Part shown: piece after piece, positions 234 through 63,179 of the stretch
How positions within the stretch are numbered: position 1 is the first letter of the stretch
Layout of the letters: each line of letters starts with the position of its first letter
From: Onchidella celtica
Taxonomy: Eukaryota; Mollusca; Gastropoda; Systellommatophora; Onchidiidae
Length of the DNA stretch: 64,000 nt
Direction: 5' to 3'
NCBI GenBank assembly: GCA_963931925.1
Contig: OZ007576.1
Location: 18,551,811 to 18,615,810 of the forward strand
The notes under the pieces: model-generated
Told to the model about the DNA's origin: nothing
What the model saw: the letters and a program-made list of their open reading frames with translations, nothing else
The model's database searches: none
Program-made: the position numbers and the translations under genes

Positions 234-283
234 CTGCCAGACATCACCTAACATAGCCGCCAGATCCCGATATTTAGACATTC
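234..283 (-). CDS. Exon 24: pore helix start
   Basis: A 50-bp exon, acceptor CTCCTAG, donor GTAGGT, phase 1 in and phase 0 out. It encodes GMSKYRDLAAMLGDVWQ. The L-G-D near its end aligns with the selectivity-filter L-G-D of polycystin-2. S6 and the C-terminus must lie beyond the left edge. Short, so identified by phase, splice sites and the family pattern together. Confidence 0.75.
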
Positions 284-3200: not shown

Positions 3201-6200
3201 GTATAATTATGTTTAATAAATGTGTGAGTCTGATGGATTGTTCTGTTAAGTGTTAAACTTGTTTGTTCGTGATTGTTGTCCTGTCATAACTTATTACATC
3301 TCCCAGTCTGGGATTTGTGACAGAGGGTTTCATAGTAAGCTCATAGCGTCACAGACAATTGCTGCCACCAGACTGTACACTAAAGAAACAATGCCAGAAG
3401 TTGACTGTGTTTAACCCACAGAACTCTGGGCGGGAAGTACGTCCGGTCACAGTGCACCATGGTGCCTCGAGGGGAAACAAAAGGAGGGCAAAGTTTCGAC
3501 AAAAAAAAAATCTGAAAAATGGTGCGCACTTGTGTAATATTCCTGTATTAGTCACAATTAGTGTGGGCTGTAAATAAAAATAGTGGCTTGACCTCCTTGT
3601 GTCTGCATGGCATAGCGCTAGGTGGCCACGCAATTGCTGCCATCTTCTACTAGTGGACGGAAGAGAGGCGGTGCAGTTGAGTGCCCTTTCTTGTCTAAAC
3701 GGGCTTAGTGTGATAGTTGCTAATAGGATCTTTCCGGATTTACTTAATTGGGAGATAATCATAATGGTGCGCTTTTCTTGTCCTCCAGCACTTGACTGCT
3801 GTTCCGGGTCTGGTGTGATCCCCCCCCTCCCTCCCTACTCACACACACACACCAACTCCACCTCTCTCGTCTTGTCATCACAAACTTACCTGATCGAGCG
3901 TTGGCACTAACTGGACCAATGGACAAGTAAAAGAATGCAGCAAAAGATATAAGTGCAACGGCTAAAGCCAGCCCCAGCCCCAGTAACAAAGATTGTACAT
4001 TCATCAGTGTCTGACGCATGATGTACAGTTGCGTGTTGACTGCTAGAGGCTCCAGCAGTCTCAATATGCGAGAGAACAATACCCCACTGCTACACACTGT
4101 GTAGACACAGTCATACAGCAATACTGTGTCCAGAGATGCAAACCCTCCTAGTAAACAGAAAGAAATAGGGAGAAACAACAGTGTTAAAATGCAAAGGTCG
4201 ACTGTTCCAGCTTGTAAGATATCTTAGACAACTGTACAGGGACCAGTCAACAATTCCAGACACACGAACATGATCAAATTACGGTTTCCTTGATCAGGGG
4301 ACAAAACCGTGAAAATAGAAGAGACTGAGTACTGAGAAGAGAGAAGTTTTATTGGAGAACATTCAGTTTATCTCTTCACTTAGATGATTTTACACCAACT
4401 CCATTGTGCCTTTTTTTTTTTAGGGGAAAGGCTTGGGGGAGATGGGGGATTTAAAAACATAGATCTAATTATTGTGGGACCAATTTCTCTGTGTCTTTCT
4501 TAGGAAGAAATTTGTATGAATTATTCTCCCTTTATCGTGTACTCAATGATGTCACTTTTCTTCCTTAGGTCCCGAGCGCACCATGTTAAAATTGACCACC
4601 CGTTCAATGCAAGCAATCTTTCGCGCGGTATGCAGCACGGTAAACACTTTGCCAAGCAAGCAAAAATCTGCGTTTGCACACCGTGCAGCAGGCGAAATGG
4701 GATAATGCGCGTGGCCCCTTAGATTGTAACAGACGAGCGGCAAGTGCAACATCTGTTTTTAGCTGGTGAAATAAAAACTTTTAGGGGCGGGGGGCTCTCC
4801 ATTTTAGTTGTCTCTAGAGGAGGAGGACTGGCTACCAGTTAATTAACCATCCACCTCATAGTCATGACCGAATTACTTGGATTGTTGTTGATGTATTCCA
4901 CCAGACTGATGGTGCGGTCGATACGGAGTACGTAGAACACTACAGCTACCATTGAGATCAGCAACTCCACCGCCTCTACCACAATGCCGAGCTGGATGGC
5001 CTTCAGCCGACCACAAGGTCTGGGTCTTGCACACGTCAGAAGATGCACCAGTAAGCAGATACGGATGACCACTGTCCAAGGGAAATCAGAAAAGAAGGAG
5101 AGATTATCTACCTTGGCCGTCTAGTTTTCTACAAAAGGTGTAGTTACCCTCAGGTGAATGTGTTTCCTAAAAATAAGTTCATTAGCGAAGACTGCAGGAT
5201 TGCATGTTAGTCGTGAAGTTTGTATAAGGAACCTCAGAACTGTCTGCGTCCAAGCCCGGACATATCCATTACAAAATACTCTGGAGTGGAATTCACCAAC
5301 AATATAATGCTAGGGTCTAAGCATAGCACATGATACCGGTACATGTATTCTCGATTGTTAATGTAATTTGTCTTCTGACTCATTTAAATACAATTTAAAA
5401 GAATATTGAAGAATTAAATCTACATACAAAAAAACGCTTGTAAGTGGCTCGTCTGAAGGGGCTCCTGGACTTACATATTGCGACAAATATAAGTTGTATC
5501 AGCAGAATGACGTAATCCCATGCGGTAGTGTATGGATACAAATTTGCGGACAGTACTTCCATCTTAGCCAATGCTCCACCATAGGCCGGGGTCTCTATCA
5601 GAACTTTTGCCTGCAAAAAAAGTATAATTATCAACCACAGAAAGGAAGCTCGGTCGTACAGAGATACCGATGATATCCCTGCGGGATTAAGAAACTTACA
5701 ACAAAATCTGCTGTTCTGTCGTCCCAATCTGCTTTGTTTTGAACGGTTCTTTTTAAAAGATCGGAGACTTGCCCTGCAGTTTGATTCCTTTTTGGATCTG
5801 GTGCAAAAACAACAAAAATGATACATATACATTACCCTAGAAACTGCTTTAATCTGTTGTTGTTATAATAATTTTATATACATTGTCAGATTTTTCGGTG
5901 GCATCAGATGTTCATTAACAACAAAAAGCTGGCAACAGTAAAGATAATTTCACATCTTAACCATACTGCAAGGCCTCAAATTTTAAAGATGTTGAAAGAC
6001 GCAGATACTAAGGTGGTTGGCGAATCTAATTGGGCTGAATGTTCAATAACAGAGGACTCCTTCCCCCATCCTCCCACGCCTACCTGAAAAAAAAAAATTA
6101 TCAACAGAGCCCTTCGGGTATGACAGGTTACGGGGAAACTGGACTTCACATGAAAACCGTGACTTACTCAGAAGAGGATGCAAGTTTTCGGTCTCAGTGA

Positions 6201-8397
6201 CTGTAATATAGTACAGACAGCATACGCAAAGGAGATGCACAGGGGTACCTCTTTGTGACTCGCCGTAAAAGAAGAAAAAGTACACTACAACACAGATCAT
6301 GGGAGATCGTTGGTCTAGAGGCAAGGTGCTCGCGTCTCATGCCGAAGGTACCGGGTTCTATCCCCTGTCAGTGCAGGCATGTTGGAATGTTTTTTGGGGA
6401 AACAATTCCTATCTCTGATCCTATAATAATTATGTAGGATCGAGCACCTAGTCTTCTAGGAAAAAGGACAACAAGCTCGGAGCGCAAGTGTGCAGATTGC
6501 GCTCTTTAAAGTTACCTTGGCATTTAAAAGTGGAGACGAGCAGGCGAAACAAGGCCGCTGCCCGAGCAAAATTCTACAAAAAAGAAACAACAAACCAACA
6601 AATCCCTACCACAAAAACGGAAACAAGAAAACTGCCTAGAGTAGAGAATCTCCTAAAATAGAGACCCAAAACACAGCGCAGATCGTAATAACACGCTTGC
6701 AATAAACTATAACGCAAAGCATACCTGAGTAAAAAGCCGAGTGTTTGGGTTGAAAACCGCAAATTCAAGCAGCACAGCTCGCGTGAGTATATCAAGCCAT
6801 TTGTTTTGTTCCAGTGAATGTACAGCGGTGATGGCGTCATTTCGTTCTTGAGCTAAGAGAATTTGGTATCCTCCGGGCTCATATGTGTCCACAGTTCCTG
6901 ACTGGCTGGTGCTCCTTTCATCCCCAGATGTGTAGACGTAACCGTCATCTGTACAATTACTGGAGCATGGCAACCAACCTACTGGGCCGTCACCAAAAAG
7001 GGAAAAAAAATGTGGAATGAAATTCTTGGACCAACTAGACTACAGGAGGTCCTAAGAGAAATAGAACCCCTGCAATGCAATTACAACTTTTAGCGAGAAT
7101 TTCTTGACTTAGTTCAGGGATGAAACCAGGACTAAATGTCTAAAACTTTTTTGGTGGTAAGAATAAAGGCCACAATTATTTTGAGCCGCAACAAAAGAGG
7201 CGGATCTTTTTGGAACAGAAGCAAAACGTATGATCGGAAATTTTGTATTATTTACGTTTTTTTTTTTTTTTTGTATTTCCGTTCAGAGAAAACACTGATA
7301 AAGGGTTCACAAATAATTAAACTTACATTCATCAGTCTTCCAGGACGTGAGACATATTTACTCCTGACCAAAAAAAAAACAAGGGATTTCCATCCTTGCT
7401 TCAATACATTTTATAGCGGCTAGGCCGCGCCACGTATAGGATTATCATGAGTCTATGTGTTCACCTACCCGTCTTCGGGGTAACATATTCTTTAGAAGAT
7501 CGTTTTACCCTCTGTAATTTGCCGCAGCAAGACATTATAGTAGGGATAGCTAGATCTATCATTCTTCTATGCCATATTTGATTAAAGTTCCATACCAGTT
7601 TACTTCATGCAGTAATAACATAAATAAGTTATAACATAAATTATTCAGGGGTGGATGCGCACGATGTGGATGCGCTCTTAACGCTCTGTGAAAGCGAATT
7701 TCTTTCATGGTATACCAAAGTGATTCTTGTCTATCTTATCTTAAAAGCGAGTGCCGGCAATTTACTACTCTTCGTTTACACCTGATAGTGATAACCCATA
7801 AGACAAGTTCCCGATTAATTCCTTCCGCTGTATGAGACCTAGTGAAAGATTAAACTGTAAAAAATACGAAGTTTAAAGGGCAAAGTTGTGGCATCAGGCC
7901 AGGAAATTAAAGCAAAGTTTCATTAATGGTAATTAGTGAGGACGATTTAAGGAAGCATCTGTATGATCTCAGCTTGAGCTAAGGGTCGCCGGAGGGAACG
8001 GGGCGGGGGGGGGGGGTTAGTCCTCTATACAGATGTTTTCACAGATAAGGCGACAGACTCTCTGAAAACAGAACATTGCCTGACCAAAGTTGTGTGATTC
8101 CAAAGATGGTGAATTCACAGACATTTTAGGAAGACGCCCGTAGATTCTGGGGTGTCCTTCCTCCTCATGGGTTGATACAATAAAATATGTTCAGTATGTA
8201 TGCATTAGGTAGATTACTTTTCACATATCGCCCCATCAACGGAATGATCAATCACTGTACTTCGGCGACAGATTTAATTGTGATGGTCAGCCACATCCCA
8301 CATTATTCATCACTACAACATGAGGGTCATCCCATTGTCATGAGCACGGTACAGTGACAAATCAGTGTATGGTGAGTAAATTTTACAGCCCCTGATA

Positions 8398-8448
<51 letters not shown>

Positions 8449-11400
8449 TCTCGTCCCTCTCTCTACCCTTTCTTCTCTCTCTCTCTTTCTTTCTTTCCTT
8501 ATCTGTTACTACTAGTGTAGGACGTAGGACTAGGAGCAATTCTTAACTTTGAACAACACAACGAGGCAACTCGCCTTTATGAAATGCCCCCTTCTCCACA
8601 GTGTTGTCGCCGTAGTCATGGTAACAAATGACTGTTTGGTGGAAATGCTCCTCTATTCCGTCTTCAACAGTGCAGTTACCTGAAGGGACAAGGAACAGTA
8701 TTGAAATCAAGAGTGAAGGAAGGCGATGATTTTTTTTCAGGGGAGCGGGGGAGGGGTGCAGCTCAAATGGAGATCAAATAAAATGAACGTGAAGACATTA
8801 CTGATGGTAGTGATGTTGAAGATGATAATTATTAGGGGTTTATTGTAGATACAAACTTTTTTGCTAAAAAAAAATATACAACAAAACGTCCAAAATGACA
8901 GCCCTTCTTCTTTGAGAAGGGTTTCAATTGCACTTTTTAGGGCGTTCCGTTGATCTTGTTGTTCTGTGTGCGTGGTTGTGCGTGATGGTGAATGTGTGTA
9001 TATGTGTATGTGTGTGTGCATACACTCGTGAGTATAGGCTATTGTTTTTGGTGATAAGAACAGCGAGAAATGCATCTAAAACTTTTTTGTTTATTTCTTA
9101 TATAGCTATATCATAATGTGCACGAGATAGGAATGACCATCAAACTTTACAGCGTCAAAAAAAAAAGGTAGGACTGATCACTCAAACTTTATAGCCGACC
9201 CAAAAAAAAACAACAAAAAAATCTTACGTTTAACTCGTATCTGTGTGAGGCTGATCGGCGTAAATCTGTACATTTCCAGATCAGAGGTGAATTTTTGCTG
9301 ATAGACAGACAGCAGCTGACCATTCGACTGATATTTGGGTAGAAGATTGAACAAAGTGGACTCCGTTAACCAACCGTACACGTCCCGGAAACTGGAGATG
9401 TTCTGGTGATGAAAGACACGGCATGATCAGATCAGATTTAAATCGTCATCGATCTCAGATGCTTGCGACTTAAGTTCTTGTTTATTCCATCTCCATTGTC
9501 TGAAAACCTGGAGATCTTTTAGTACGTAGAAAAGGTATAACAAATGCACACCTTGACATTTGGTTAAAATGCATTGTGGCACTTATCAAGCTGTTTCACA
9601 GTTCCGATGTATTCTAATTCCTTATAACTAAAGCCGCAATAGGTTTAACGCCGACTTTCTCAGTTGTGCAAAAAGTGGAATTATAACAAACAAGAACTAA
9701 GGTCGCGTACAGTAACATTGTCGTCACAACAATTTTTCCCATTTTACAAGTGAGCATTTCGAGGGTGCCTGGGCAAACACCGTAACTTTTTTTTTTTTTT
9801 GCATATTCTGTTTCGCCTTGGTACGTACTTCATTCTGACATGGTGCGAATTCCATTATCAAATTATTGATGAGAATTTAAAGGTCGTAACAGACATTTGA
9901 TACTTCATGTCAAACTTTCAAATCTCTCTCCTGTAAAATTTACAAAACTGGCATTACGGTCTTTGCGCAGGCACCCCACAACTTCGTAGTTTTGGATGTG
10001 AGTGAGATATTCTTATGTACAGATATATATTTTGCAAAAACGTCTCTGCTTTTAATTTCAAAACTATTAAAGATATCAGTAAGACGTGTTCAGAGAATAT
10101 AGATCTCACCATGAACATTGACAAGATAGCCGTAACTAAAAAGCACCTAAATCATCGATACATAATTACGTACGGGAAAGAGATTTGTCCCACCTGGCAG
10201 GCGAAAATCGTTTTGTTCGGCAAAATTTGCATTACCTTTCCATGGCCGGTCAAATTGAGATGGTTTCTGACAATTTCGTTTTGACGAAAAGCTGTTGGTA
10301 CGCTGGTGTGTAAGCAAATGATACCGACGATGATGACGAAGAAAGTGTGGAAGAAAATCCCTCGCAGGACTCCATAGAGACGTTGCTGAAGCTATAAATG
10401 TGGAAGATAACAGAGGGTGTTTAATCATGTAGACCACCCATACACCATTCCAGTTTCCACACTCACCTCCATCAGAATTAGGGGGATATCATAACTAAGC
10501 CCCGAACGCCACAGCCAGTTGCCGCCAGCAAAATATACACCCTAGAAATAATGGCAGCAGATGACTGTGTTTGACCGGACCTAGTATGATAGGGTCTTCC
10601 CAGATTTACTAAAAAAATGGAAGAAATTATGCTGTGCACTTCATGTCTGCCAACAGCTGACTGTGCCGTTCCAGGCTTAATATGATACCTCCGTAAGACT
10701 TTAATTGAATACTGTACTTATTTCGATCAGAAAAGCCAAGGGCTTGTCATAACCATATGTAACAGGACGGGTACGAGCGGTCTCTCTATAGCTAGCTATC
10801 TAATCTGACACCAAATTGTAACAGGACGGGTAACACGAGCGGTCTCTCTATCTAGCTATCTCATACAGTCAAACATACAAACAAAACTATCAGGTTTTGA
10901 GAGGACATTTAAGTTTATTAAAAAGAAAAGGAAAAAAACAAATAATAATACAACAATACAATTCACAATAAACCACAATGAACCAGGACAATAAACAAGA
11001 CAATACAATAAACCACAATAAAATAAACCCAACCGATAGGCGCGGTGAATTAACCAAATGAATTCACACTTGATCCACATCATCAGAGCTGGCACTTCAC
11101 AAATCTTGAAATATTTACAACTTCTTTTATCTTAGCCTGGACAGAATGACACGTCCTGCTGTCTTGAAGACTTGGGCGGAACTGACTGACCCACGCTATC
11201 ATCTAAGCGTCACCCAAAAACGCACAACCCATTTTCTCCTTAACAGTTCACTAAGTGTAAATTCTAACAAGACACTATAACAAATAAAAACATTTTTTAA
11301 GAACTACCCTCTTGCTCGTGTATGTTGTAAATACACTATCTTGATAAAATAGTATCTAACAAGATAAATACTAAACAAACTTATAATGTACTGATACATA

Positions 11401-14400
11401 ACAAGATTCTACTTCTGTCACCAGGGATGGTCACTTAAATTGACCAATCCTGGACAATACAGACAACGCGATCCTACCGCGTCGGTAGGATCGAGTAGTT
11501 CTTGGAAATTGGATTTTTCTCATATTTTCAAGTCCCTGGTCCTATTGGGGGGTAGGATCGAGTACCTAGTCTTCTCGCATAAGGACGAAAAAATTCGGAG
11601 GGCCCGTGTACACGTTGCGCACGTTAAAGATACCTTGGCAGTTGGAAATCGTAAAGAGCAGGCCGAAAGGCCGCTGCCCGGGCAAAATTGAAATTAATAG
11701 ATTAAAAATGTATCCATATCCATCTCCCCCCGCCCCCAGAACAAGAAATAATAAAACAAGTAAAGTGAGGTGTAAATGCCAAGGGCAGCGAACCTCCTAA
11801 AATAAAGACCTCAAATCAATACAGACAACGCTAAGATCATAGTTAAAAATTCGCGCAGTGAGCTAATCAGTCGGGAATGTTACTCAACACTACATGACTC
11901 ATGTCAAGTGCACGATCAAACAATAAGGGGAGATTATCTATGGTTTCTGTGTGGTTACTTCCCCTTGACCACATCTAGTGGTCCAGCTAGTCAAAATAAA
12001 CAGGTTTATCCCCCTTTCACCACAGCGAGCTAAAACTCAGCCCTGTAATGGTTCACCCCATTACACATAGAAGGCGCCAGCAGAGGGATAATGAATAGAA
12101 AATTGCTTCTCTTTGAATTTGTGCGGAAAGGGAAATTCTAGCTGAGTGGACGTGTTAGTTTAGTGTAGTCAGTATGGCACAAACAGGCTATTATTACGTG
12201 ATTTTAACTTAGGTACAATATCTTTCCCAATGTTTATTGTGTAGGAAACGATATGTGGGTGGATATCAAGCGTGAAAGTTGGCGTCTGTGGGTGGGACTG
12301 ATTGATTGCAATGGCAACATTTACATTGCGCCACTCAGGAAATTTTTCTCTTGTGACATGTTTAATTAATGTGGAATACTAATGAATAATTATGTAAATG
12401 TCTCTGTTATAGCTGGAATTTGCACTCTAAGACTTGTTTCATCGGCTTGATGAAGTTCATTTAAAATGGCTGTTTTAGTTTATTGTGTATTCAACGTTGC
12501 ATGTCGCAATTTCGAAGTTGGGGTGTTTGCTGTTTCGGCTTTTCTTCTGATATGTAAAATAATACAGTTTACAAGGATATTTGCTGTATTTGCTGTGCTG
12601 AACATGTTACAGTGCCTTTCCATGTTATTGTGATCATTCAAACAATGCCACTAGAACTTCAATACCGACAGGTTAGATATTTCATTTCCCTTTTAAATTC
12701 TCAAATAACTTATAAGCAAAGCTGGAGCAATACGTCTGGCTTGCATACCAAAACAATAATATACGCCTGCATTAACTGATCGTGTAAAAAGGCTACATAA
12801 AAACGCAATATTATGAAGTATTATGTTTACTCGCAGACTGCCTTTAACTTTAAGTGTCTGCTGTCTTTAAAAAAATGTGAAGAAAAAAAATTACCATCGG
12901 CATGTCAACATTTTGACTTTAGGTGCCGAAACAGATGGGAACCAGGAACATCCCACACCCTGGTCAAGTCCTCTAATATTAATTACTATATACCACTGGG
13001 TCATTGGGTCGGTCCACCCCTTTCTGACAACTTGTGTGTGTATTATGTATTTGCTTATGGCTATATGGGCATGGGAGTTTCACAGTGAGATAAGTATCAT
13101 CACTGGTCTGAGTTTCCATAGGATTTGCGTCACCCTTAGCCGGTCATACATAATCAAGGATGTTTTAAAACATATCCCATAGATTATAATTGTTGTTCCC
13201 ACAGAAAGTGCAATAAAGTTTGGTCACCGAGCACACGAAGAATGGACACATAGCTAGATGATTTCAAAATTATCTTACCAAGAAATGTTTTCTCCGTTGA
13301 CCAATGTCATCATCTAGGTCAAGCCTGTTCACGTCTTCGTCGGGTGGTAAAACTTCTGAGCCAATGTCTGAAGTATAGAAAACACACACACACACATTTA
13401 AGAGACGTTTATATTATGGTTTGTAATTCGTCAACGTTCCCTCCGACTGTAGTTACTCAAAATTCGAAAAATCGATATATATTATATATCTCCAGCTGCA
13501 TTTAAAGCCACATCGCATGATCTTGGTTATAAATTCCTACGCTAAGGATCATAGCAAAAATTCAAACTTCATCGTAAATAAACCAGTTGTGCTAAAGTAT
13601 AACTGTTTTTTGCTTCTCCTGAAAAGTGAAAAGTAACCAATACCGATTACTACAGTTTCATGGAACGGCGGGGAATTGTTTTGGTGTAATTTCCCAAACA
13701 GAATTTGTACGGTCTTCCCAAACCTGCAAATGTTACAATCCCAGAGAAATTTCAGCGATACATCATTAAACTCGGGATTTGTTCTCCATATTAAAAGGCC
13801 CAAAAATGTTGGATAAGATAGATACTCCCAAAATTACAGGGTTAACAAAATCATCTCTGTACTATTATCTATCTGTGTTGCAATGAGAGATGACCATATT
13901 AAGATCTTTACAATGGTGGACAATGCCATTTCCCGCCCTGATTTCAGACTGATTCATTTAATTGTTCGTTTTTCGCAAAAATGCAAAATCCACTTCTTGC
14001 TGTCAGTGCAAAATGAAAGTATGGACAACAATTGTCATATGGAGAGAAAAAGTAGTCAAATGTCTTTCTTGGGTCTCAACAATCACAGTTGACGTCCAAA
14101 TACTTAAAATGAAGAAAATAAAAAGTTGGAAATCGAAAAGTTGTAAACGGGAAAAATCCGCTGAGACAAAATGAATACGCAAGGCTCTTGTAAACTTTTG
14201 AATATGAATAGCCTACATGTACTTTGTTTCTTCTTTATTTTGGCACTCCCATTGCGTTCGATCAGTTCATTAACACCAATAAAATGTCTGGAGCCGATAG
14301 TCATGCATGAGGGTATACAAGAGAGTTCTCTTTCTATACTCTAGACCAGTGGTTCTCAACCTTTTTTTTTTGTTGTCCCACGCCCCACTTCAATTTAAAA

Positions 14401-17400
14401 AAAGTCGGACGAAACTAGTATACAAAATAAAACAAAAATATTTATATATGTATTCAGCATAGTATACATTCAAAAGAAGTTCTAATTAAAATTCCATTTC
14501 AAGTAAAGGCAAAGAACAGTTTTTCTATACGTTAAATTAAAGTATTCTATGAAATTAAGATTTCTATGAAAAATCAATACGCCCCATTCTGAAGCCCCCC
14601 GCCCCCTAAAATATTGCCACGCCCTACCTTGAAAAAGACTGTTCTGATCAGTGGCAGAATGGATGGCAGAATACTTGGATGCCAGTGGGCACTAGTACCA
14701 GGCCCCAGGGCGGGATGTATATTATATACATGTATGCATGTAAGCCTGGTAGGATCGAGTACCTAGTCTTCTCGGAAAATGACGAAAAATTCGGAGGGCC
14801 CGTGTGCACGTTGCGCACGTTAAAGAAACCTTGGCAGTTGGAAATCGTAAAGAGTAGGCCGTACAGGCCGCTGCCCGGGCAAAATTGAAACTAAAAAATT
14901 AATAGATTAAATTTCAGCCATATCACCTCCCTGCTCCATATCCCCAATAAAAAAAAAATGTATATAACTCATTATTAATTATTAAAAATAGGGAGAACCC
15001 CTAAAGGCAGACTACACGGAGGAATGCACCTCCTGCAACACTGTTGATTCCACGCGTATCGACCATGTCGTTCCAATGGATCAAATCAACACTGTAGAGC
15101 GGGGTAAAGTACACCATGGGCTAGGCACTTTCTCCATACCCACACAGCCCAGGCCTGCAGCACAAACACTATTTAGCTGCTGACCGTCTGCCAAGACAAA
15201 AACAGCCAATTATCATTTATGTAAGCCTACCTTCCATGTCAGCTGGCGGTAACCTGTTGAACTGAGGCTCGACTGGTGCCATGTCACTCAATTCGGCCTG
15301 GGCAGAGTCACGGAGGAGACAGGAAAGTAGCAGGGACAGAAGGAGTATCTGGAGGTATAAACCAGCACTGACAGACTAAATCTCATTGTCAAAGCGGCAC
15401 GTATCTACACAATGATCCTAGTAAGTAATATGCCAAGATAAACATACTCAATTTAAGAGTTTTGCCAGGTCAAAACAGCTTTTTTTTTTTTCATTTCAGG
15501 ACTACTAACAGCCCTTCTGAGAAGAGAACAAACAAAAACAACGCGAAAAATGAGGTGCACATGACCACTGCAGTGATCATTTTAAAAAGGAGACCTACAC
15601 ATAGCTGAAAGGGTCTGGCGAAATCGGGAATAAGGTGAATTTTTTTTATACCTGTTTGAAAATCAAAATAATATACTAAGACGATTCCAAGCAAAAACGT
15701 TTAACTGAATGCAGAAAAATGGCTATAAGTTAATCTCAGTTTTTATAGAAAAAGTGTTACCCCATTAGAGGGGTTTTCTCAGGAATTTGAACGTTCAACT
15801 TAAGCCCGATTTATCTAGATCCACCCACATAAAATACCCAAGTTTACATGGTGGAAAAGGAAACACAACAGCCAAAGACATGATGGATGTACAAATGTCA
15901 ATAGTTCAGCTTACTTTCAGTGGCTCAAGCAGGAGCGTGTCCGCCGTCGTTGAAAAGAAAAGAGATGCAATCCATTGTAAAGATACTTCCCCACCCCACT
16001 CCAGACTGTAGAAAACTGTAAACGCCGCCGACACAGCGATGGACAGAAGAGCGAAACTGTATCCAATGAAAATCGCCCACCACGGCAGGAGACAAGGTCC
16101 ATTTAGCCGCTCCTCTTTCGCATTGTTCAAACGCTTCTGTTTGGTCGTATCGTTTTCGACACACCAAATGTCATAGGGCTGCACTGTGTCCGAGTAAGAC
16201 GCGCTCATTGATGGTCCATGGAATGTCACGTTGAGACGAGCATTATCGTCTTGCATCACAGGATACCCGGCGCTGAGTTTGCGAATATTCCTGAAGATCT
16301 TTCTGTCTTCCTTTGATCTGAGCAAAAGAGCATCGCTGTCTGAAGCAGTATATCCGTCTGCTTGAGGGTGAGAGCAGGGCGAGGTGCCGGCTTCTTGGGC
16401 TGGCCATTCTTCAAGGCTATGATTGTCTGTGGGTTGGGGAAATGACATAGGGGCAGTTTTAATCCCTCGCTGGAGATTTATTTGTATATCTGAAAAATCT
16501 TCCTGAGGGCTATCAGCATCTTTGGCATGCACCTCTATTGGAATATTGAAGTTTGCTGCATTTCCTCTTGCTGTCGTGGCTTCATTAGATGCAAGAACTT
16601 TGCTGAGCAATTCGGAAGAATACGCCTGAGCAGCCTGTCTTTTGATTGGTTCAAACTGGTCCTTGGAAGGTATAACTGGCTGAGTGGTGGGTGTCACACG
16701 CTGGCCATTGTGTGGTCGAAGTTTTCTCTTCCGGAACATGCAGGTCATGATGACCCCAGGGACAAGGATAATCACAGCAGAGGCCACGCCCACGTAAAAT
16801 GTCCTGTTGATTGTGCACACGTACGGGCGTGAGACAGGTGTTAACTTTCACAGACAGATAATCTAACAAACAAATAAATGTAATATTAAGAAGTCAGAAA
16901 ATTAACTACAAACACAAGATTAGATGCTCGGGATTAACCCTCTAGAGTTCAGTGTTCTACTTGTGATGCTCTCACCGGATGCTAAATGCTCTATATTTCG
17001 GGGATATTCCATTTTTTCTAATAATAGTACGGATAATGGTAATAATAATAATAATAGTAACAGTGACATTTTAGGATAAGAATTCTATTTTTAGAGCTCA
17101 TCCTACGTTTTTGCAAGTTCAGAGACACCTGTCAATGTCCAGAGCCTCTGGGTTATTTAGGCACAATAACGTTAAAATTGAAAATAATTAAAAGTGTCAT
17201 TTTTATGTAAGAATACGAATTGCTGGTAATTATTCCGACTAGGACTACACATTTCGGATCAAACAGATGTATTGCACGCATTCCGTACATATCCATCCTC
17301 GTCAGGCAGTCGACAAAATAATGATTATCTTAAATGCGCTGCGAGACTTATTTGGGCTGGATTTGGCCTATAATATCTATACAGCTATAGGTTAAATAGC

Positions 17401-20400
17401 CGGTCAGGCCGGAATCGAAAGCCCTATAGGCAGCCAGTCTGTAGGACTAAACCTGGTAAACAAATCCCGAGTGGAGTCCTTGAAGCGGCCCGGCGTGTAA
17501 GACACACTGCTCCAGCAGTTCCTGCAGCCGAGCTGGTGCCAAACACCATGCTCTGCATTCCTTTGGGTCACATCAGCGAGGGAGAGGGGGGTTCTGACGC
17601 CTGGGCAACCCAGGGTCCCTATATTCCATTGCCCAGGTTTGCGCCCTAGAGAGGTCACTCCAGCTTCACTCATAGTTAGGAAAAAAAAAAAAATAAATAA
17701 AAATAAAATCTGGATGTACCTGTATGTCAAGCGAACCATTCCAATGCTGATGCCACTGGTTGTTCCTTCATCGTCTGAACTCTGACCCTGATACCACATG
17801 GCATTGGTAATCATAGCCAAGTACAAGAGAGCAACACCGCAGACAAAACGCTGGACTCGGGTGAACACGCTGTAGACTGGACGCTTAGCAACGGACAACC
17901 ACAAGTGCTCGTCAAAGAGTTTTTTCTTGGAGATTATATCAAACAAACTTCCACCATCAGCCAGACTGGAGTCTAGGACAGGTAAATGACGTAATGTTTT
18001 TCCATCACCGTGTGTTTTTGATAGCCAGTCCTGACACAAAAATGTGTATCTAAAACATGACAAAAAATGCAGAAAAAAGTAAGCATCTCATTACATGATA
18101 TGATTACGACATTTTGATTTCACAAATTAGAGATGAAGAAAAAAATATTTAAAAATATAAGCAGGCGGTTCACTGTTCTTTTGAATATCACACTACTGAT
18201 CATAACTGGATACAAGGCCAGAAGAAGCCCAAGGAAGATGTGGACAGTTGGCGTCAAAGAAACAATGACGACCCACGGCACAAGCAGAATGAAAAACAAC
18301 AACATAAGCGTCTATGTTGGTGCACCTTATGGGAACTCAATGAGTCTCACTGTCTGGACGCCGCCAGCCACCTGCAGAACTATTAAAGTGTTTTGCAACT
18401 ATCCTGAGGAACAATATTATACCTTGCAGCCTCTTGTAAGACTATTCGACATTATGGGCCCTTACTGTTTACAGCTGAATGCTGCTCGGTTGCTGCAGTT
18501 GTGGTAATACCTCAAATGTATATGCTGTAGCTAGAACAACAGCATTTAAGCCCCTACTACCTACAGCTAGGTTCTGCTCGGCATTCATAGTCAAGGCAAT
18601 CTACCATAAGACTCAAATGAATATTACGCTGCCGTCACGCAACAAAATTTACAATTCCAACAAAGTGTACACGTGTAAACAGTGGCCTCTCACTTTATAA
18701 TGCTTGACCTCATGTGGTATTTTTTTTTACTTTGCTTTACATTCATGTTCTGTTTGTAACCTTTTCTTGGGTTTGTCCACACCCGCAGGGCTCCGTAAAT
18801 ACATTTATTTTATTTTATTTTTTTGCCAACTTCCCTTTTACAGAATCAGCTGGTGGTCCATTAAGCTAAAAGTCATTTTCCAACTTACTTGTCTCCGTTT
18901 GCTAAATCCATGATGACAACATTCTCCAGTTTCCAGTCGCGGTATCGCTTTTTCTTTCCGAGTCTCCAACAACAATGACGACAACTTGGTAGGCAGAAGA
19001 TGCCACATTTTCCGCGGTCACCATCAGAATTCTTGGATAAACCTCCTGTTTGATCCGCCCGCTGTCCAGAGGTTTCAGTGGAGTTGAACTGGTCCTTGTG
19101 GGTTGGCTCGCCTCCAAGCCAGATTTTCAGTTCCAGCAAAGATCCCAGGTGGCAGTTGGTGGACATGATGAAATTATTTGTACATCCGCTGGTGAAATTC
19201 TGCAGTTGTAGAAATATAACAATGTAAACTTTTGCGCTTCTTGCTAGCTGTAGCACTGTGGGATGGGCCGGGTCCAGGGGTGCTGACGTTTTTGTTGTTA
19301 TATTCATAAATAAAAGAAAAGGAGACAAAGAGAAAAAGGAAGAAGACGTAAGATACTTAGAAAAAACGAGTATAAAAAAAGAGAGAAAACGCAAGAAAGA
19401 GGAGAGAAGGAAAATAAAACAAGAAAGGAGAAAGATTAGTCGTTTTTAGGCAAAAGACTTACACAGAGGCGGACATATTAAGGCAAACACACAAAAAAGA
19501 CGGAGAGACAAATCACAAAAGACAGACAAACACATACACATACGAAGGCTGATGGGCAAACAGACACACAGAAGACAGACAGGCACACAGAAGACAGACA
19601 GGCGCACAAAATACAGAGAGACAGATAGATTGAGGAAGACAGGCCAAGAACAAACCTCTCGAATTCCATCGTACAGAGCCACACCTTCACTCTGCCCGAA
19701 CTGTCCAATCACTGACAGGCATGGTAAAACATCCAATCGGCTTGGAGAATTCATCGAGGTGTGGACAGAAACGGCGTAGTACCATTGGTCAGATTCTTTG
19801 TTGCTAAGCAAGGGCAAATATGCCCACTGAGGACAAAAGGCGTAACAAACTTTGGTCACAGGGGGTACTTCAGTGGGTATCTTATTCTCAATTCATTCAC
19901 CGTGTTTCAGCAGAGATATTCCGAGCAACTGAGATTCTGGGGGCGAACATTGTAAATTGCAATAATTCGATGGAATTGTGACCCTTAGATCATTAGTCAC
20001 GGTCAAACTAAGCTGTGGGTGTTTGCCTGGGCACGTCCACACGGTATGCACCGCACACAGGAAATTAATGTGTGCACAAACGGTTGATTACCAAAAACAA
20101 TGTATTAAATAATTATATATAATACTGAAAGAAAATAAACAAGTTGGTTAAAAAGTATAGAATAAAATCTTTTAGGCCTACCTCAAAGAATGCAATCCTG
20201 TTTGTATTGCATTACAACATGCCAATACAGTTTTATTAGTAATGAATTATACTGTCAAAATTAATTTTGGGGACCAACTTAAAGTTTACATTTGCACATA
20301 CATTCAATGCACCCAAATCTTTATCACGGGGGAAAAAAACGCACACTCTGCTAAAATTAGAGGGAACCAAGTTCAGTAATGTAATCCATTAGCATCCTGA

Positions 20401-44358: not shown

Positions 44359-47300
44359 CCTCCCCCCGAAAAAGTGAGGAATGAAAGAGAAAAACGTGAA
44401 CTGAGAAACAAAACTTACTATTGCTGATGGTCCGTATAGCTGAACTGTCAAGTGTAGCCGTTTTTAATTTCTCTGCTACTGTGTTGATGGTGGCCAGAGA
44501 ACTCAGCTGTAGAGAATACACAAGGGACATAGGAATTATTTGGGAGGGCCGTAGCACACGGAGTCAAGTCTGTGTTGCCTCGGTTTTACTGTCAGATAAT
44601 AATAATAACAATAATAATAATAATAATAATAATACACAGCATTTATATAGCCCTTCATCCCGTTAGCGAGAATCTTTTTTACACTGCGTTGCCGGAAATC
44701 CAAACAAAGCTCTACGTCACCACCTCACCGTTTGTGACGATAATAAAATATCGCATGCGCAGTAGGAGGCATTTCCCTCTCCGTCATCGGCCAACTATAG
44801 GCTAACTTATAGGTAGAATGCGCATGACGTCACATTGTGCTTTTGTTTTGTTTTTCCGCCATCGCGATTGTTTAGCCGGTGGATCAGCTGATTAGTTTAG
44901 AGATATATCGAAGCGGTTTTGTTAATTAAAATGCCTGCTAGCTGCATTGTCGTTGATTGCTACGCGAGACAGGGATGGAAAGGATGGATAAAAGTTGGTC
45001 AGATTCCCCACCATTCCTGTAAACAAAGGAAAGGAAGTGAAAGAATTGACCGAACGTCGTTCGACTGTGGTATGGTTGACAAGCTACCAGCAGGAGTGGC
45101 ATAGATCTAGATCTAGATCTAGACATTAAAAAAAAGTGAAATCGACCTATTCTGTTTGTGCCGAGCACTTCATCTCAGGTACTTGTCAGTTTTTATCATT
45201 TATGAATAACGTGATGAAAGTAAGCCCGTCATTTCCGTCACAGAAGAGTTAGATCTAGAATCTAGATCTAGATCAGATAAATATGTACTTTAGCGCTGTA
45301 GGGTTAGAGGTCTAGCGAGTGCGGTTATTTTCATTTTACCGCACAACAAAGTCACCGACTTAATAAAATTAAATCTCAGTTATAATTAAAAACTTTCTTG
45401 TTGACTTGCTTTTAAGCAGTTCTAGATTCACACTGTAGCCTACAAATGAAATGAAGATGATGCACTGGCAAAATAGGCTACTGATTAAAATTCACCAGAG
45501 ATAGCCAGAATGCAGTAGTATGAGGGAGCGAGTCCTGAGTGATGAGGTATGGAATCACAGTCAGATCTAGATCTGATCACACAGATGTTGAATTGCAGCA
45601 CTAACAGAATGAGAGACAGAGAGTGCTTGAATTGTGAGATACAACATTAATAATTAAATGTATCTGTATCACACAGATATGAATAATAAAATATGAACTC
45701 ATAGGCCTAAATAAATCTAGTCTCCTATCAGTAATCACAGGGCTGTTGACCAGCAGCAATATTAGAGATTGAGCCGTGAGCGATGAAAGATAAAATTATG
45801 CTTAGATCTACCCAGCACCACACAGATATGAGAATGTGAGGCTTGAGTGATGAGATATGTAAGGATAATTAGATCTATACCACACACTACACAGATATGA
45901 GATATGTGAGGCTTGAGTGATGAGATATGTAATGATAATTAGATCTATACCACACACTACACAGATATGAGATATTATGTGAGGCTTGAGTGATGAGATA
46001 TGTAATGATAATTAGATCTATACACACACTACACAGATATGAGATATGTGAGGCGTGAATGATGAGATATGTAAGGATAATTAGGTCTATACCACACACT
46101 ACACAGATATGAGATATGTGAGGCTTGAGTGATGAGATATGTAATGATAATTACATCTGGATCTAGATTTATATCACACAGATATGAGAGTGTGAGCTTT
46201 GAGTGATGAGATATAAATGATCTTCAATATTATTATTATTATAGATATGTAATGATAATTAAATCTAGATCTAGATTTATATCACACAGATATGACAGTG
46301 TGAGCCTTGAGTCATGAGATATTTAATGACATTTAAATCTAGATCTAGATTTATATCACACAGATATGACAGTGTGAACCTTGAATCATGAAATATATGT
46401 AATGATATTTAAATCTAGATCTAGATTTATACCATACATATATGAAAGTGTGAGCCTTGAGTGATGAGATATGTGTAATGATATTTAAATCTAGATCTAG
46501 AATTTATACCATGCAGGTATGAGAGTGTGAGCCTTGAGTGATGAGATATATATGTAATGATATTTAAAGCTAGATCTAGATTTATACCATGCAGGTATGA
46601 GAGTGTGAGCCTTGAGTGATGAGATATATATGTAATGATATTTAAATCTAGGTCTTGATTTGTACCATACAGGTATGCGAGTGTGAGCCTTGAGTGATGA
46701 GATATGCAAGGATATGGGAGTGTGAGCCTATATATTATTGCATAACACGAGAGTGTGAGCCGTGAGTGATTAGATCTAGATTTCCATTACACAGATATGA
46801 GAGTGTGAGCCTTGAGTGATGAGATATGTAGCCTAATGATAATTAAATCTAGATCCAGATTTCTATCACACAGATATGAGAGTGTGAGCCTTGAGTGATG
46901 AGATATCTAATGACAATTAAATCTAGATCTAGATTTATACCACACAGGTGTTGAACCACAGCAATGTGTGGGAGTGAGTCTCGAGGGATGAGACGCAAAG
47001 AGTGTGTTCAACAACATACTGTCACGCAGGAAAGTTTTTACGTTCTCGCGGCTATTTCTGTAGAGTGGGCATTACCCAAGGAATTCACCGTTTGTTCGGC
47101 TGTTATAAATTGCCATGTTAAAGGGGGCTGACTCCCAATTCCAATTAATAGGCTTTACCCAAGGAATTCGGTGACGTAATGATCGCCTGTGCGGTTGTTA
47201 TAAATAGTCACGGGGATTCCAAAGAAGTACCGCCTTTCCGGCAACGCAGTGTAAAAAAGATTCTCGCATCCCGTTAACAACCAGGCTCTAAGCGATTTAC

Positions 47301-52688: not shown

Positions 52689-52741
<53 letters not shown>

Positions 52742-52774
52742 AAAGGAGAGAACGAAAGAGAGAGAGAGAGAGAC

Positions 52775-52823
<49 letters not shown>

Positions 52824-52881
52824 AAGAGAGAGAAAAGGAGAGAACGAAAGAGAGAGAGAGAGAGACCAAGAGAAAGAGAGA

Positions 52882-52925
<44 letters not shown>

Positions 52926-55900
52926 CTTTGGCCCAGATTACCTAAAAAAAGAACATCGCATATGTATTGCCCCCAGGCTTATTGTCATCACCACAACATT
53001 CTAGAGAAGACAACCCAGAAGAACTTACCACTAAGGATTTGTCCTCTGGAGGGGCACTGTTGATCTGTGACTTCACATCTGACATCAGAGCTAGGACGCG
53101 GCCAGACCCTGTGTTGGGGTCACTGAAGTTCAAGGCCGTGGCTTCCTCGAGCGTCTCACTCTGTGTATCACAGGGAAGAAACATTTCTTATTTCATGGCA
53201 ATAATATTGCATCAACTTTCCAGATCAACCAGGAGCAACAGACACATGGACTGAGAAAGATACAGAAGATCATTTTTCCCCTCCGCAATTCTCTTCAATA
53301 AGACACTTTAGCTAGATGTATGCCATAATATTTCACTAAGGTTCATTGTTATAATTAGTATCACTTCATAATTATATGCCTGTTGTTGAGTTTATTGAGT
53401 CATGATACAAATTATGTTTGTATGTATTTGGAACGACGCTTTAGATGTGTTTACCATGCATGTGCTCTTAAAAGCTCTATGATAGAGAATTTCACTCATG
53501 GGATCATAAAGTCATTCCTATCTTATTTTATCTTATGTTTTTGAGCTTTAAAGAAATGATGATTATCAAATTAAACAAAAATAAATAATAATGAAATAAA
53601 AATAGAACTATCTGGAGGGCGCAGACCACAGGAGATCTTCAGCGTAGGGCAGGCTTCGTCAAACACATACATTGGCTGCCATTTGAGGACATCCATAGAG
53701 ATAGGTGAATGCAAACGAAATAAGACAGGACCGGCGACAGAGAAAGCAGTCAGTCCTCTTGAGGTGGCCTTTTTCAGGTCTTAGTGGTGTTGTCCACAGC
53801 ATCCGCTCCACTCAGCAATTTTACGGAAAATGACGTATGAGGCCAGTATTGGTGTTGACTAATTTACCAAAAAAAAAAACCCCAAAAAATACTGGATTTA
53901 TCTTCTGTTATTGTTATTATATTAAAGAAAAAATTAACAGATTGATTCCATATAAAAAGACTTTTAAAAAATATACCACGCTGAGAACTGAACCACGGTC
54001 TCCCGCCTGTCAGACAAAGATGCTAACCACTACTTTACTGCGGACCGGCTTTAATTGTGAAGGAATTTTTATAGAGTAGAATTTTGATAAGCATCGGCGG
54101 ATAAACACTTCAAACGAAGAAACACTGCAAAGAAACAGAAACAACAACTGGAAACGGAAGAGAAAAGGTTAATGAGCATTCATTCATCAAGAACATTCTT
54201 CAAGCAAACACAATCGAGAAAAGGAAAAAAAGAGTTATTTCTTATGACTCTTTATTGTTTGCTCAGTGTGACGTTCACGAATATTAAAACTGTCTGTCAT
54301 TGAATGAAATTTAAAACACCTTTTCACATTCATTCCGTCTTCTAAATCTTTGTTTTAAGTGTTTCATTTTTTTTCCCAATGCACTTCCTACTGGCAGACA
54401 TACCATGAGTGATTTACTGAAGATTTCGTTAAAACCCGCTTTTTTTTTTTTCACTAACATTTCTACCTCTCACGCTGTGATCGATTTGATCACAGTCCCG
54501 ACATGCGCTGACAAACTGTTGACATTTTATGCATGAACTGTCTGCTTCCTCCGGAAAGCGGTAGATGGGCCCAACAAAGCGTACATAATTACATCAAATA
54601 CCTGCAGTCAAAGCTCTCTCTAATGTTCTCAAACCGCTGAGAGAATCTCTTGATGCTTTTAGCAAAATATTGTAAAATTCAAAGTGAGTGCACGATATTC
54701 TAACTTTTGTGCAGCATTTTGATGTGTTCGGCAACATTCTGATGTGCACTGCACCAGTACAGTGATTGCGCAGCCTCTCACCCTCGAAGCTTAGAGGGGA
54801 CACTGCCGCAATTGTCATTAAACAATTCTACCGACCTGTTCTTCTAACTATCCCATTTCTTTTTCACAAAATTCCTTTGTTCGAGATCTGTACGTTTTTT
54901 TGTTGGTTGTTTTTTTCTTTGCCTTCTTTGATCCATGGACATAGGAAACAGCCAAATGGCAAGCAACACTTCTGTTTCATAAACGAGAGTTAGAGAATTG
55001 AAGTTATTTGATATTAGTTTCTTTGGAAATGAATGGACCATTGTGTTACCAAAAAAAAAAAAAGAACTGTTCAAAAGAAAATCAACCCTTGCCGTGCTGA
55101 CAGCTGACATTTGGCATCAGCACCATGTTCTAGCCAGAATTCTTTCAAGTTCTCTTGTAATTAGCGCAGAGCGGAAGAAAGCAAGTTTTGTGAAATGTTA
55201 GAAGTCGAAGCTCGTTGGAGTTGCAAGACAAGCCTGAAAATCATGAACCACTTCAACTCCTGATTCCCCATTGAAAATGAATGCCGGAGCGATCATTTCA
55301 GGCTTAAAATTGCCATGGATGCAGCTTGTTTTATTTGCCTCGTTCCAGGAAGACAACAATAACGGTACATTACATGCTCGATACAACCTCAATTTCAAAT
55401 AAACAATAATGTGAGTAATCAGCCAGGACAAGTCATCGCAAAGCGTGGCTTGGAAAGGGCGGGAATCGTTGCCAGAGAAACAAACGATTCACTTTGAAGT
55501 CAAATAGGAAGACATATCCTTTAACGACAACTCCATATCGAAAATGTTATGAGAATCAAAACTCCGATCTTGTCTGAAAATGATAGGATAAATGAGGTGA
55601 ATGCCTGCTATTTGAAATAACTCACAGCAATCATCATCATATCATAAAGGAAGTAGGACCTCCAATAAACCCATGTAAGACGTTTTAACCGCTGAGCCTT
55701 AAATTGTACAAAATATCATATTGGGCACACAAAGACTTCAAGATGTACGTGGGCATATTTTAAAAGGTGTTTATGTTCGATATATTTTTAATACTTTCAT
55801 TGATTTTGAGCCACAGCTGAGTTGAACAGAAGAAAGTGTTCCGACATTTTGAGCCGGAAAAAGACGCATTTTCTTCGAGCAGGATTAAAAAGTATGACAA

Positions 55901-57255: not shown

Positions 57256-57286
<31 letters not shown>

Positions 57287-57300
57287 TAGACAGACAGACA

Positions 57301-57340
<40 letters not shown>

Positions 57341-60300
57341 CAGAGAGACAGACATACAGACAGATGGATGGGAGCATAGTAGTAGGTTTATCTCGGCTTA
57401 TGCCGTTTACCCCATCTAGCAATACGAGAAAATTAACCTCAAAACTTACAATTTCGCATTGAGAACCTCGGAAGCCAGTCAAACAGGTGCAAGTCCCTGG
57501 GGCAGGGCCGACACAGTTACCACTATTCTGACAGGGCGAAGCAGCGCAAGGGTACTCAGTGGTCGTCCGTGCAGTCGTGGAAGTGACCGGTGGAGCAGGT
57601 GTCGCTGAAGATGCCGACGACGTAGATGACGAGGCTGTCATGGTCGAGTCAGATGTTGTAGTAGATTGTGTTGTTGTTGCTGATCCTGTTGACGTTGGAC
57701 TGTTTGTCTGGGTGGTAGATGCAGTAGTTGTGTCAGAGGCCGTTGATGATGGTGGTTGTGAAGGTGTTGTTGTTGTTGTTGTGTTGTAATATGGAGTAGT
57801 TGTTGTATTGGCTGGTGTTGGTAATGTTTGTGATGCGTTTGTTGCAACAACCGGTGTTGTTGTTGTTGTTTGGTTGGTGGTAGTAGTCGGGGCGTTTGTT
57901 GTTGCTGTTGTTGTTGCAAATGGTGTTGTTGTCTGTTGACCAGTGGTTGTAGCGGGAGCGTTTGTTGTTGTTGTTGTCGCTGTTGTATTTGGAAGTGTTG
58001 TTGTTGTTGGGAGTGATGTTGTTGACTGGTTCGTAGTAGAAGTAGGAGAGTTTGTTGTTGTTGTTGCAAGTGGTGTTGTTGTTGGTTGATTAGTGGTTGT
58101 AGTTGGGATATTTGTTGTAGTTGCAAGTGGTGTTGTTGTTGGTTGATTAGTGGTTGTAGTTGCTACATTTGTTGTTGTTGCAAGTGGTGTTGTTGTTGGT
58201 TGATTAGTGGTAGTAGTTGGGATATTTGTTGTTGGGACATTTGTTGTTGTTGTTGGTTGATTTGTAGTTGTAGTTGGGATATTTGTTGTTGTTGCAAGTG
58301 GTGTTGTTGTTGGTTGATTGGTGGTTGTAGTTGGGACATTTGTTGTTGTTGCAAGTGGTGTTGTTGTTGGTTGATTAGTGGTTGTAGCTGGGATATTTGT
58401 TGTAGTTGCAAGTGGTGTTGTTGTTGGTTGATTAGTGGTTGTAGTTGGGACATTTGTTGTTGTTGCAAGTGGTGTTGTTGTTGGTTGATTAGTGGTTGTA
58501 GTTGGGACGTTTGTTGTAGTTGCAAGTGGTGTTGTTGTTGGTTGATTAGTGGTTGTAGTTGGGACATTTGTCGTTGTTGCTAGTGGTGTTGTTGTTGGTT
58601 GATTAGTGGTTGTAGTTGGGATATTTGTTGTAGTTGCAAGTGGTGTTGTTGTTGGTTGATTAATGGTTGTAATTGGGACATTTGTTGTTGTTGCAAGTGG
58701 TGTTGTTGTTGGTTGATTAGTGGTTGTAGTTGGGATATTTGTTGTTGTTGCAAGTGGTGTTGTGGTTGGTTGATTAGTGGTTGTAGTTGGGATATTTGTT
58801 GTTGGGACATTTGTTGTTGTTGTTGGTTGATCAGGACTTGTAGTTGGAGCGTTTGGTGTTGGAAATGGTATTGTGGTTTGTTGCTCAATGGTTGTAGTTG
58901 GAGCGTTTGTTGTTGTTGGACTTGGCGATGCACCTAGGGTGGATATGCCAGAAGAGCCTGTTCCCGAAATTGTGGATGGATTTGTCGGTACTGGTGAAGT
59001 CGGTGGCGCGGAAAGTACTGTTGTTATTAGTATTGTCGAAGGCGGTGGTGCTGTTGCAGTTGGTACCCCTGCTGTGTGGAGTGGTGGTGGAGCAGTTGTT
59101 GGCATTGTCAGCACAGTTGTTGATGCTGGTGATATTACTACTGTTGTTGTAGACAATGATGCTGTCGGTTTTAGTGTTGGTGATGTGGCTGTTGATAAGA
59201 CTCCGGATGTTGTTGAAAATGCTGATGGCGTCAGAGGAGTTGATGTTGTTATAACAGAAGGTGTCATTGTTGTTGGGGGCTGTGATGTAACTGATGCAGA
59301 TCCTGTGGTTGAATTGTTTCCTAAGCTTGTTGACTGTACTGTTGTTTGTGGCACAGTTATTGTTTGGGGCACTGTGGTTGTTTGTGGCACTGTTGTGGTT
59401 GTTGTTTGTGGCAGGGCTGTAGTCACCGTTTGTGGGACTGTTATAGTTGCTGTTTGTGGACTTGTAGTAGTTGTTGTTTGTGGCAGAGCTGTAGTCATTG
59501 TTTGTGGAACTGTTGTGGTTGTTATTTGTGGCAGGGCTTTAGTCACCGTTTGTGGGACTGTTATAGTTGCTGTTTGTGGACATGTAGTAGTTGTTGTTTG
59601 TGGCAGAGCTGTGGTCATTCTTTGTGGCACTGTTGTAGTTGTTGAATGTGGCAGACCTGTAGTCATTGTTTGTGAGACTGGTGTAGTTGCTGTGTGTGGG
59701 ACTGTTCTGGTCATTGTTTGTTGCACCGTTGTTGTTGTTGTTTGTGACAGTGCTGTAGTTATTGTATGCGGCACTGTTGTAGTTGTTGTTTGTGGAATTT
59801 TGGTAGCTGTTGTTTGTGGTAGAGCTGTAGACATTGTTTGTGGCACTGTTGTGGTTGTTGATTGTGGCAGTGCTGTAGTCACCATTTGTGGGACTGTTGT
59901 AGTTGTTGTTTGTGGCACTGTTGTAATCATTTCCTGTGGAATTGTAGTAGTTGTTGTTTGTGGCAAAGCTGTAGTCATTATTTGTGGAACTGTTGTGGTT
60001 GTTGTTTTTGGCAGTACTGTGGTCACTGTTTGTGGGACTGGTGTAGTTGCTGTTTGTGGAACATTTGAGGCCATTGTTTGTTGCACTGTTGTGGTTGTAT
60101 TTTGTGGCAGTACTGTAGTTATTGTATGTGACACTGATGTAGTTGTTGTTTGTGGCACCGGTGTAGTCATTGTTTGTGGAATTGTAGTGGTTGTTGTTTG
60201 TGGCAGAGCTGTAGTTATTGTTTGTGGCACTGTAGTTGATTGTGGCAGAGGTGTAGTCACTGTTTGTGGCACTGTTGTGGTTGTTGATTGTGGCGGAGCT

Positions 60301-63179: not shown

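Follow-up and report, generated by a model that had tools for sequence, protein, structure and literature searches.

Our analysis of a 64,000-nucleotide stretch of contig OZ007576.1 from the gastropod Onchidella celtica (this whole stretch is called the window below) indicates that a giant mucin, an EGF module and a polycystin-1-type membrane part very probably belong to a single gene, with a predicted join between the mucin and the polycystin part. Judged from the sequence, the product is best read as a cleavage-dead, mucin-tethered polycystin-1 (PC1)-type subunit of a heteromeric sensory channel. We regard this reading and its presumed function as rather probable, a grade that blends high confidence in the single gene with lower confidence in the tether step; use of the mucin as a tether is by itself a tentative proposal, somewhat short of even.

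Gene model and membrane part

An open reading frame on the minus strand (63248-57252) runs for 1998 codons without a stop. The assembled model has 24 GT-AG exons on this strand, every join is in phase, and the resulting 3464 codons are stop-free. Exons were placed by homology and phase; ab initio chaining (penalties 8-14) produced between 106 and 38 exons, most of which looked false on inspection, and was not used. Comparison with Elysia put the start of exon 9 at 23411, restoring PSPSRRRLL, and a start at 23339 gives 3440 codons. A preliminary description of this DNA had counted 24 in-phase exons, which stand, and 3450 codons, a figure close to the 3464 obtained here with exon 9 starting at 23411.

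Exon 1 (57450-63179; all exons are on the minus strand) begins at the ATG at 63179 and encodes a signal peptide (MEGITLILIVLI...), a 1847-residue mucin and a complete six-cysteine EGF, followed after base 57450 by a GTAAGT donor (score 6.1) in phase 0. Exon 2 (53029-53160, phase 0-0), which by eye contains the helical start of a GAIN-like region, and exon 3 (44419-44506, phase 0-1) were ranked first and second in the leave-out ranking described below. Exon 4 (38377-38468) was placed by alignment to Elysia marginata protein P0001. The GAIN-like region occupies exons 5 (37283-37382), 6 (36631-36773), 7 (26719-26875) and 8 (24117-24428), as judged from the relatives' alignment and a profile comparison. 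Exon 9 (23287-23411), whose acceptor is weak (3.1), carries the conserved polybasic PSPSRRRLL and the first half of a degenerate GPS, and exon 10 (21561-21797) carries the second half of the GPS, lacking HL/T and the canonical cysteines, together with TM1.

The PLAT domain is located between TM1 and TM2. Its first part is in exon 11 (19656-19826) and its second part in exon 12 (18889-19199), both placed by Pfam and the relatives' alignment, and its end shares exon 13 (17720-18049) with TM2. TM3, a cytosolic loop and TM4 are in exon 14 (15915-16803) and TM5 is in exon 15 (15231-15348); exon 16 (13279-13367), a linker placed by the relatives' alignment, leads to S1 in exon 17 (10236-10391). The polycystin (TOP) domain is encoded by exons 18 (9228-9402), 19 (8575-8679) and 20 (6725-6978; the acceptor at 6978 is weak at 1.6, with an alternative at 6948) and ends in exon 21 (5475-5610), which also holds S2; Pfam and the relatives' alignment support exons 18 to 21. 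S3 is in exon 22 (4877-5071), S4-S5 in exon 23 (3890-4147; supported by Pfam as well) and the pore helix in exon 24 (234-322), which has a strong donor (10.6). Exons 10, 13, 14, 15, 17, 22 and 23 rest on the relatives' alignment and hydropathy. Exon 12 includes a Cys-rich and basic PLAT insert (CGIFCLPSCRHCCWRLGKKKRYR), which varies in length in sea-slug relatives and keeps its richness in cysteine; it is perhaps a membrane-anchoring loop.

The gene had been described as ending at 234. Exon 24 encodes the pore helix, and the gene continues past base 1 with an S6 exon, in phase and ~480-760 bases beyond base 1 on the same contig (flanking piece L002, 9521-9239). With this exon added, the PKD_channel profile was matched to its last position, and no C-terminal exons past S6 were found in the 50 kb compared. 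In the non-mucin part, Polycystin_dom (2.4e-30), PKD_channel (3.8e-12) and PLAT (3.7e-6) exceeded the Pfam cut-off. The TOP domain and channel segments S1-S6 are present, S6 being outside the window. A hydropathy scan of the window model gave nine distinct segments and did not call S4, and the S6 exon outside the window matches the channel profile. Solved structures of PKD2L1, polycystin-1, polycystin-2 and PKD1L3 were matched (20 sequences, E<=0.001). An arginine present in both aligned PKD1 rows is missing from this S6, as it is from the PKD1L2 and PKD1L3 rows. In human PC1, R4100, R4107 and H4111 plug the pore, according to the accessible text of PMC12799467. The in-phase model and these domain matches support the single gene model proposed earlier, which joined mucin, EGF, GAIN, TM1, PLAT and channel.

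Several repeats lie in and around the gene. The largest foreign reading frame is of LINE type (29269-32553, plus strand; 1094 aa with endonuclease and reverse transcriptase) and is inserted between exons 6 and 7, antisense to the gene. A dispersed intron repeat at 33027-33098 (minus strand) has related copies near 6498, 11616, 14748-14902 and 22528-22813. In Rfam, one copy region passed the tRNA cut-off of 29 bits with a score of 29.7 (ARAGORN found none), and on this score the repeat may be a tRNA-derived SINE. Intron minisatellites of 38, 70 and 78-79 bp were found at 543-1480, 45802-46158 and 46241-46947. The translated plus strand upstream of the gene (~71-75 kb in window numbering) showed by eye protease, reverse transcriptase and integrase-like reading frames, which are fragments of a Ty3-type retroelement.

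The mucin and EGF exon

The mucin consists of 42.9% Thr, 14.6% Pro and 7.9% Ser, with one Cys, nine N-glycosylation motifs and 939 Ser/Thr residues. It has the PTS tandem repeats that are a feature of gel-forming and multidomain mucins; VWD, SEA, NIDO and AMOP modules were absent from the Pfam matches at E<=1 (model with the shorter exon 9). The EGF gave only sub-threshold Pfam matches (EGF_TEN 0.005, EGF_2 0.04), yet all six cysteines are present. In Markov shuffles of the mucin DNA (300 for each order), the longest reading frame was 414 codons at order 1 and 538, 634, 604 and 714 at orders 2-5, against 1847 in the real sequence. Periods of tandem repeats were divisible by three in 27/27 rows inside exon 1 and in 6/30 elsewhere (our own count of overlapping rows). 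The shuffles and the repeat periods together reject the idea that the mucin frame is a chance product of simple repeats. The second codon position was the C-rich one in all 183 windows of the mucin.

The share of synonymous codon differences was 17/52 (33%, expected 29%) in one repeat family and 80/353 (23%, expected 28%) in another. There was thus no excess of synonymous change between repeat units in these two families, the values being about those expected at random; this counts against strong selection, and the repeats give no sign of purifying selection at the codon level. So the frame and composition of the mucin are kept while single codons drift. Such drift is common in many mucins.

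The longest Ser/Thr/Pro stretch in this protein is 1902 residues, compared with 207 aa among 45 relatives; these relatives are what the homology searches returned, many of them vertebrate PKD1, and they do not amount to a survey of mucin rarity. The 207-aa stretch is in the ectodomain of Diadema PKD1L1 (P0017, residues 1580-1786) and is a separate case of a mucin-like insertion. No mucin-bearing orthologue was found in a search of proteins of ~1900-6060 aa.

The mucin may be devoid of a specific sensing role and serve as a fast-evolving, passive glycan coat or as a spacer that protects the receptor. The repeats evolve without visible codon constraint and no relative was found with a mucin of comparable length, as would fit a coat of this kind; however, frame and composition are maintained across 1847 codons, and we consider this explanation doubtful.

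GAIN region and degenerate GPS

Pfam found no GAIN or GPS model in the non-mucin part. When a profile built from the window together with two Elysia proteins was aligned by hhalign to the pre-TM1 region of eight other polycystins, the probability was 88.9% (87.7% without the GPS), compared with 0.04-0.18% for 10 column shuffles. The GAIN domain named in the preliminary description is borne out by this comparison.

The window has lost HL/T and the four cysteines at the canonical places of the GPS, as have the two Elysia proteins that span this site, and a CAC pair is nearby. The preliminary description left the degenerate GPS unmentioned. The Plakobranchus protein covers only the second half of the GPS and also lacks HL/T. 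PKD1L1 and PKDREJ, which belong to other clades, are said in the accessible part of PMC9672506 to lack the HL^T/S triplet, like this gene, and not to be cleaved. Loss of cleavage is therefore not new in the family, and a cleavable GPS is not required for membership among polycystin-1 proteins. The window and the two Elysia proteins all keep RRRLL, which precedes the YWD of the GPS by 21 residues. A Mytilus protein (P0014) has SRRRRS near a GPS that keeps its cysteines and lacks HL/T, and this suggests that changes of protease site and GPS may go together more widely in molluscs.

These basic motifs raise the alternative that the mucin is split off after synthesis by a proprotein convertase cutting at RRRLL. 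The freed mucin would then be secreted, or stay attached non-covalently, and would serve as a ligand or as an anchor to the matrix. A furin site has an arginine at P4, which RRRLL lacks. The cleavage site is a predicted one, and at this position the Plakobranchus protein is unaligned and the Littorina protein stops short. We hold cleavage at RRRLL to be unlikely. In its favor, the basic motifs (RRRLL here and in the Elysia pair, SRRRRS in Mytilus) are close to the lost HL/T. The N-terminal part of C. elegans LOV-1, as reported in the accessible text of PMC9829181, is cleaved off and secreted, which favors the cleavage explanation and argues, by precedent, against a tether that is permanent.

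Paralogues in the same genome

A search of the O. celtica genome (1.14 Gb, 43 contigs) with the TM1-TM3 part returned 14 exon matches, five of which were the window's own. Of the remaining loci, on contigs 6 and 2, the two on contig 6, with the most exons or the highest identity, were inspected: paralogue A at 36.8 Mb and paralogue B at 57.4 Mb. Exons matching the polycystin domain numbered 16 at 14 places including the window, on contigs C1, C2, C6, C10 and C16 (our own count), which is an expanded family.

Both paralogues have an EGF exon upstream, on the correct strand and in the correct order (tblastn with the window's EGF, 5.9e-4 in A and 5.7e-4 in B). Pfam EGF matches in the paralogue upstream exons were 3.5e-6 and, at the cut-off, 2.8e-4. 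The EGF exon precedes GPS/TM1 and PLAT exons in A, and GAIN-region and PLAT exons in B. For the EGF exon of A, a strong donor (11.6) allows a phase-0 end that matches exon 1, though the exon scorer chose a different frame there; in B only weak donors were found, in phase 1 and not 0, a mismatch with exon 1. FTSN replaces HL/T in paralogue A. Just upstream of the EGF, paralogue B has an Ig domain (Ig_2, 9.4e-7) and a further piece with a sub-threshold match to Ig_3 (0.0079), and a further piece from paralogue A had no Pfam match.

Both paralogues share the upstream EGF exon with this gene and differ from it in having no mucin in the DNA read; in B, the EGF is preceded by an Ig domain. No Ser/Thr/Pro stretch longer than 115 aa was found upstream of the EGF exons in ~38 kb of A (with 2500 N) or 26 kb of B, lengths that possibly fall short of the 5' ends. 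Since an EGF lies upstream of polycystin exons in both paralogues, the combination of EGF and GAIN was apparently already present in the ancestor of these three genes, and the outermost part would have changed with the mucin.

Linking exon 1 to the polycystin exons

In the leave-out ranking, a codon model was trained on exons 4-24 only and applied to non-overlapping candidates (acceptor >=4, donor >=5) between 57449 and 38469 on both strands. Exons 2 and 3 were the two top candidates with scores of 23.3 and 18.4, the best score on the opposite strand was 15.5, and the phases of the two exons chain with exons 1 and 4. Exons 2 and 3 have no counterpart in the aligned slug proteins. Compared with exons of the paralogues, they showed a weak likeness to one (16/500 shuffles were as good) and none to others (485/500 and 462/500).

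An independent first exon with a signal peptide in the first two introns was rejected, as no exon combining an ATG, a hydrophobic start and a phase-0 donor was found between exons 1 and 2 or between exons 2 and 3. These two gaps contain three AATAAA, with 2.7 expected. Among 10 reading frames in the large introns no known domain exceeded the Pfam cut-off, and one was sub-threshold (zf_Tbcl, 0.0055). The leave-out ranking, the lack of an alternative signal-peptide exon and the upstream EGF exons of the two paralogues support the predicted join between the mucin and the polycystin part.

The weakest explanation is that of two genes, a secreted mucin-EGF protein ending near 57 kb and a separate downstream polycystin gene with its own first exon: the mucin is absent from the annotated slug models, and the mucin frame if unspliced continues to a stop at 57252, but such a product would terminate in simple-repeat residues, the donor immediately follows the EGF in a phase that matches exon 2, no alternative signal-peptide exon is present in the first two gaps, both inspected paralogues have the EGF exon upstream of polycystin exons, and we consider two genes very unlikely.

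Relatives and family placement

Homology searches found 11 proteins at E<=0.001, including those of Elysia marginata, Plakobranchus, E. chlorotica and Littorina; a wider alignment-based search gave two matches, both already known. The gastropod proteins aligned to exons 4-24 are 37-46% identical to this gene, and no one relative spans every exon. In a tree of 18 proteins and 938 columns, which includes two long-branch rows (P0044 and P0016), the window grouped with three sacoglossan proteins (100/99), next with Littorina (100/100) and then with Mytilus (89/93, not starred). The wider group of the window takes in Dreissena, Macrostomum and Penaeus (97/97). Vertebrate PKD1L2, PKD1L3 and PKDREJ are apart from it and group with the nemertean Lineus (100/99), so that not all protostome rows are on the side of the window. 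By its position in the tree, the gene most likely comes from a heterobranch gastropod.

The preliminary description had left a choice between an extreme relative of PKD1L3 and an independent invention. This is now settled: kinship of the gastropod clade with PKD1L3 was rejected (AU p 2.6e-46, one PKD1L3 row), as was its grouping with PKD1L2 plus PKD1L3 (AU p 1.8e-5), and the gene belongs to a gastropod clade. Vertebrate PKD1L3 has the same polycystin-1 layout and, in the preliminary description, a Ser/Thr-rich ectodomain region; by the measure used here, Dasypus PKD1L3 (P0015) has no Ser/Thr-rich stretch. The Dasypus protein is listed with a lectin domain and has HLT, whereas this gene lacks HL/T and its model (scanned with the shorter exon 9) gave no C-type lectin match.

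The proteins of Elysia marginata (P0001), Plakobranchus (P0002), E. chlorotica (P0003) and Littorina (P0004) are in the same clade (100/100) and are 36.5-48.8% identical to this gene over the GPS-to-pore columns. P0001 and P0002 are named PKD1L2, P0003 is hypothetical and P0004 is named polycystin-1-like 2. The two Elysia proteins have GPS loss and RRRLL in common with this gene. Unlike this gene, the annotated models of Elysia, Plakobranchus and Littorina have neither mucin nor EGF; E. chlorotica P0003 starts with a Ser/Thr/Gly/Glu repeat of ~170 aa, which may be an annotation error. A cephalopod TRP survey placed mollusc sequences named PKD1L1 or PKD1L2 in a non-vertebrate clade (PMC13402157). 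Apart from this survey, whose accessible text does not contain the word 'mucin', our literature search found nothing relevant on mucin-bearing polycystins in molluscs.

Proposed mechanism

This gene bears on the way in which giant polycystin-1 ectodomains gate the channel; its sensor function is an inference here, as it was in the preliminary description. In the mucin-tethered reading, O-glycans on up to 939 Ser/Thr residues would make the mucin a stiff tether, hundreds of nm in length. A mucin rod measures ~0.2-0.25 nm per residue, and 1847 residues in glycosylated form would thus reach about 370-460 nm. The tether may extend into mucus, glycocalyx or matrix at a ciliated or sensory surface, and the subunit would co-assemble with a TRPP (PKD2-like) partner. 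In vertebrates, PC1 proteins join TRPP channels at 1:3 and their ectodomain is regarded as a sensor of mechanical or chemical cues, according to the accessible text of PMC12799467. Because the GPS lacks the cleavage triplet, a pull or a ligand on the mucin/EGF end could act through the uncleaved GAIN on TM1 and the channel with no shedding of the ectodomain. The mucin would have taken the membrane-distal place that is held by the Ig domain in paralogue B.

A broader scenario, which we rate as quite improbable, is that a mollusc polycystin subfamily gave up GPS self-cleavage and rebuilt its outer end by exon exchange, from Ig-EGF-GAIN to mucin-EGF-GAIN, possibly with a basic protease site replacing the GPS. 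The outcome would be a channel subunit covalently coupled to mucus that responds to mucus flow or viscosity, or to ligands that bind glycans.

The membrane part and EGF are kept, the outer module is a simple glycan rod and the GPS triplet is absent; the gene is therefore a natural experiment on the need for self-cleavage and folded adhesion modules and on the ability of a mucin to be the handle. For comparison, the genome also contains paralogues, one of which has an Ig domain. With its mucus-like, sugar-bearing stalk on a known sensor family, the gene could help to reveal how channels of this kind respond to force or mucus.

Comparison with known systems

The EGF-TM7 adhesion GPCRs (EMR, CD97) combine EGF, a mucin-like stalk and GAIN as does this gene, but they are 7-TM receptors without a channel. 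C. elegans LOV-1 is a polycystin-1 described with a Ser/Thr-rich, mucin-like N-terminus, for which our literature search found no printed source. This N-terminus and the Ig plus EGF of the paralogue speak against treating the list of polycystin-1 ectodomains in the preliminary description as closed. With LOV-1 as a precedent for a mucin-like ectodomain, what is new here is a mucin-EGF-GAIN polycystin-1 whose GPS lacks the cleavage triplet. A fly screen of 2005 noted two putative mucin genes that resemble lov-1 (PMC1173111, accessible part). LOV-1 has GAIN/GPS, PLAT and TOP like this gene, as compared by description in the accessible text of PMC9829181. The GPS cysteine of LOV-1 is needed for its localization and function, whereas in this gene the canonical cysteines are lost.
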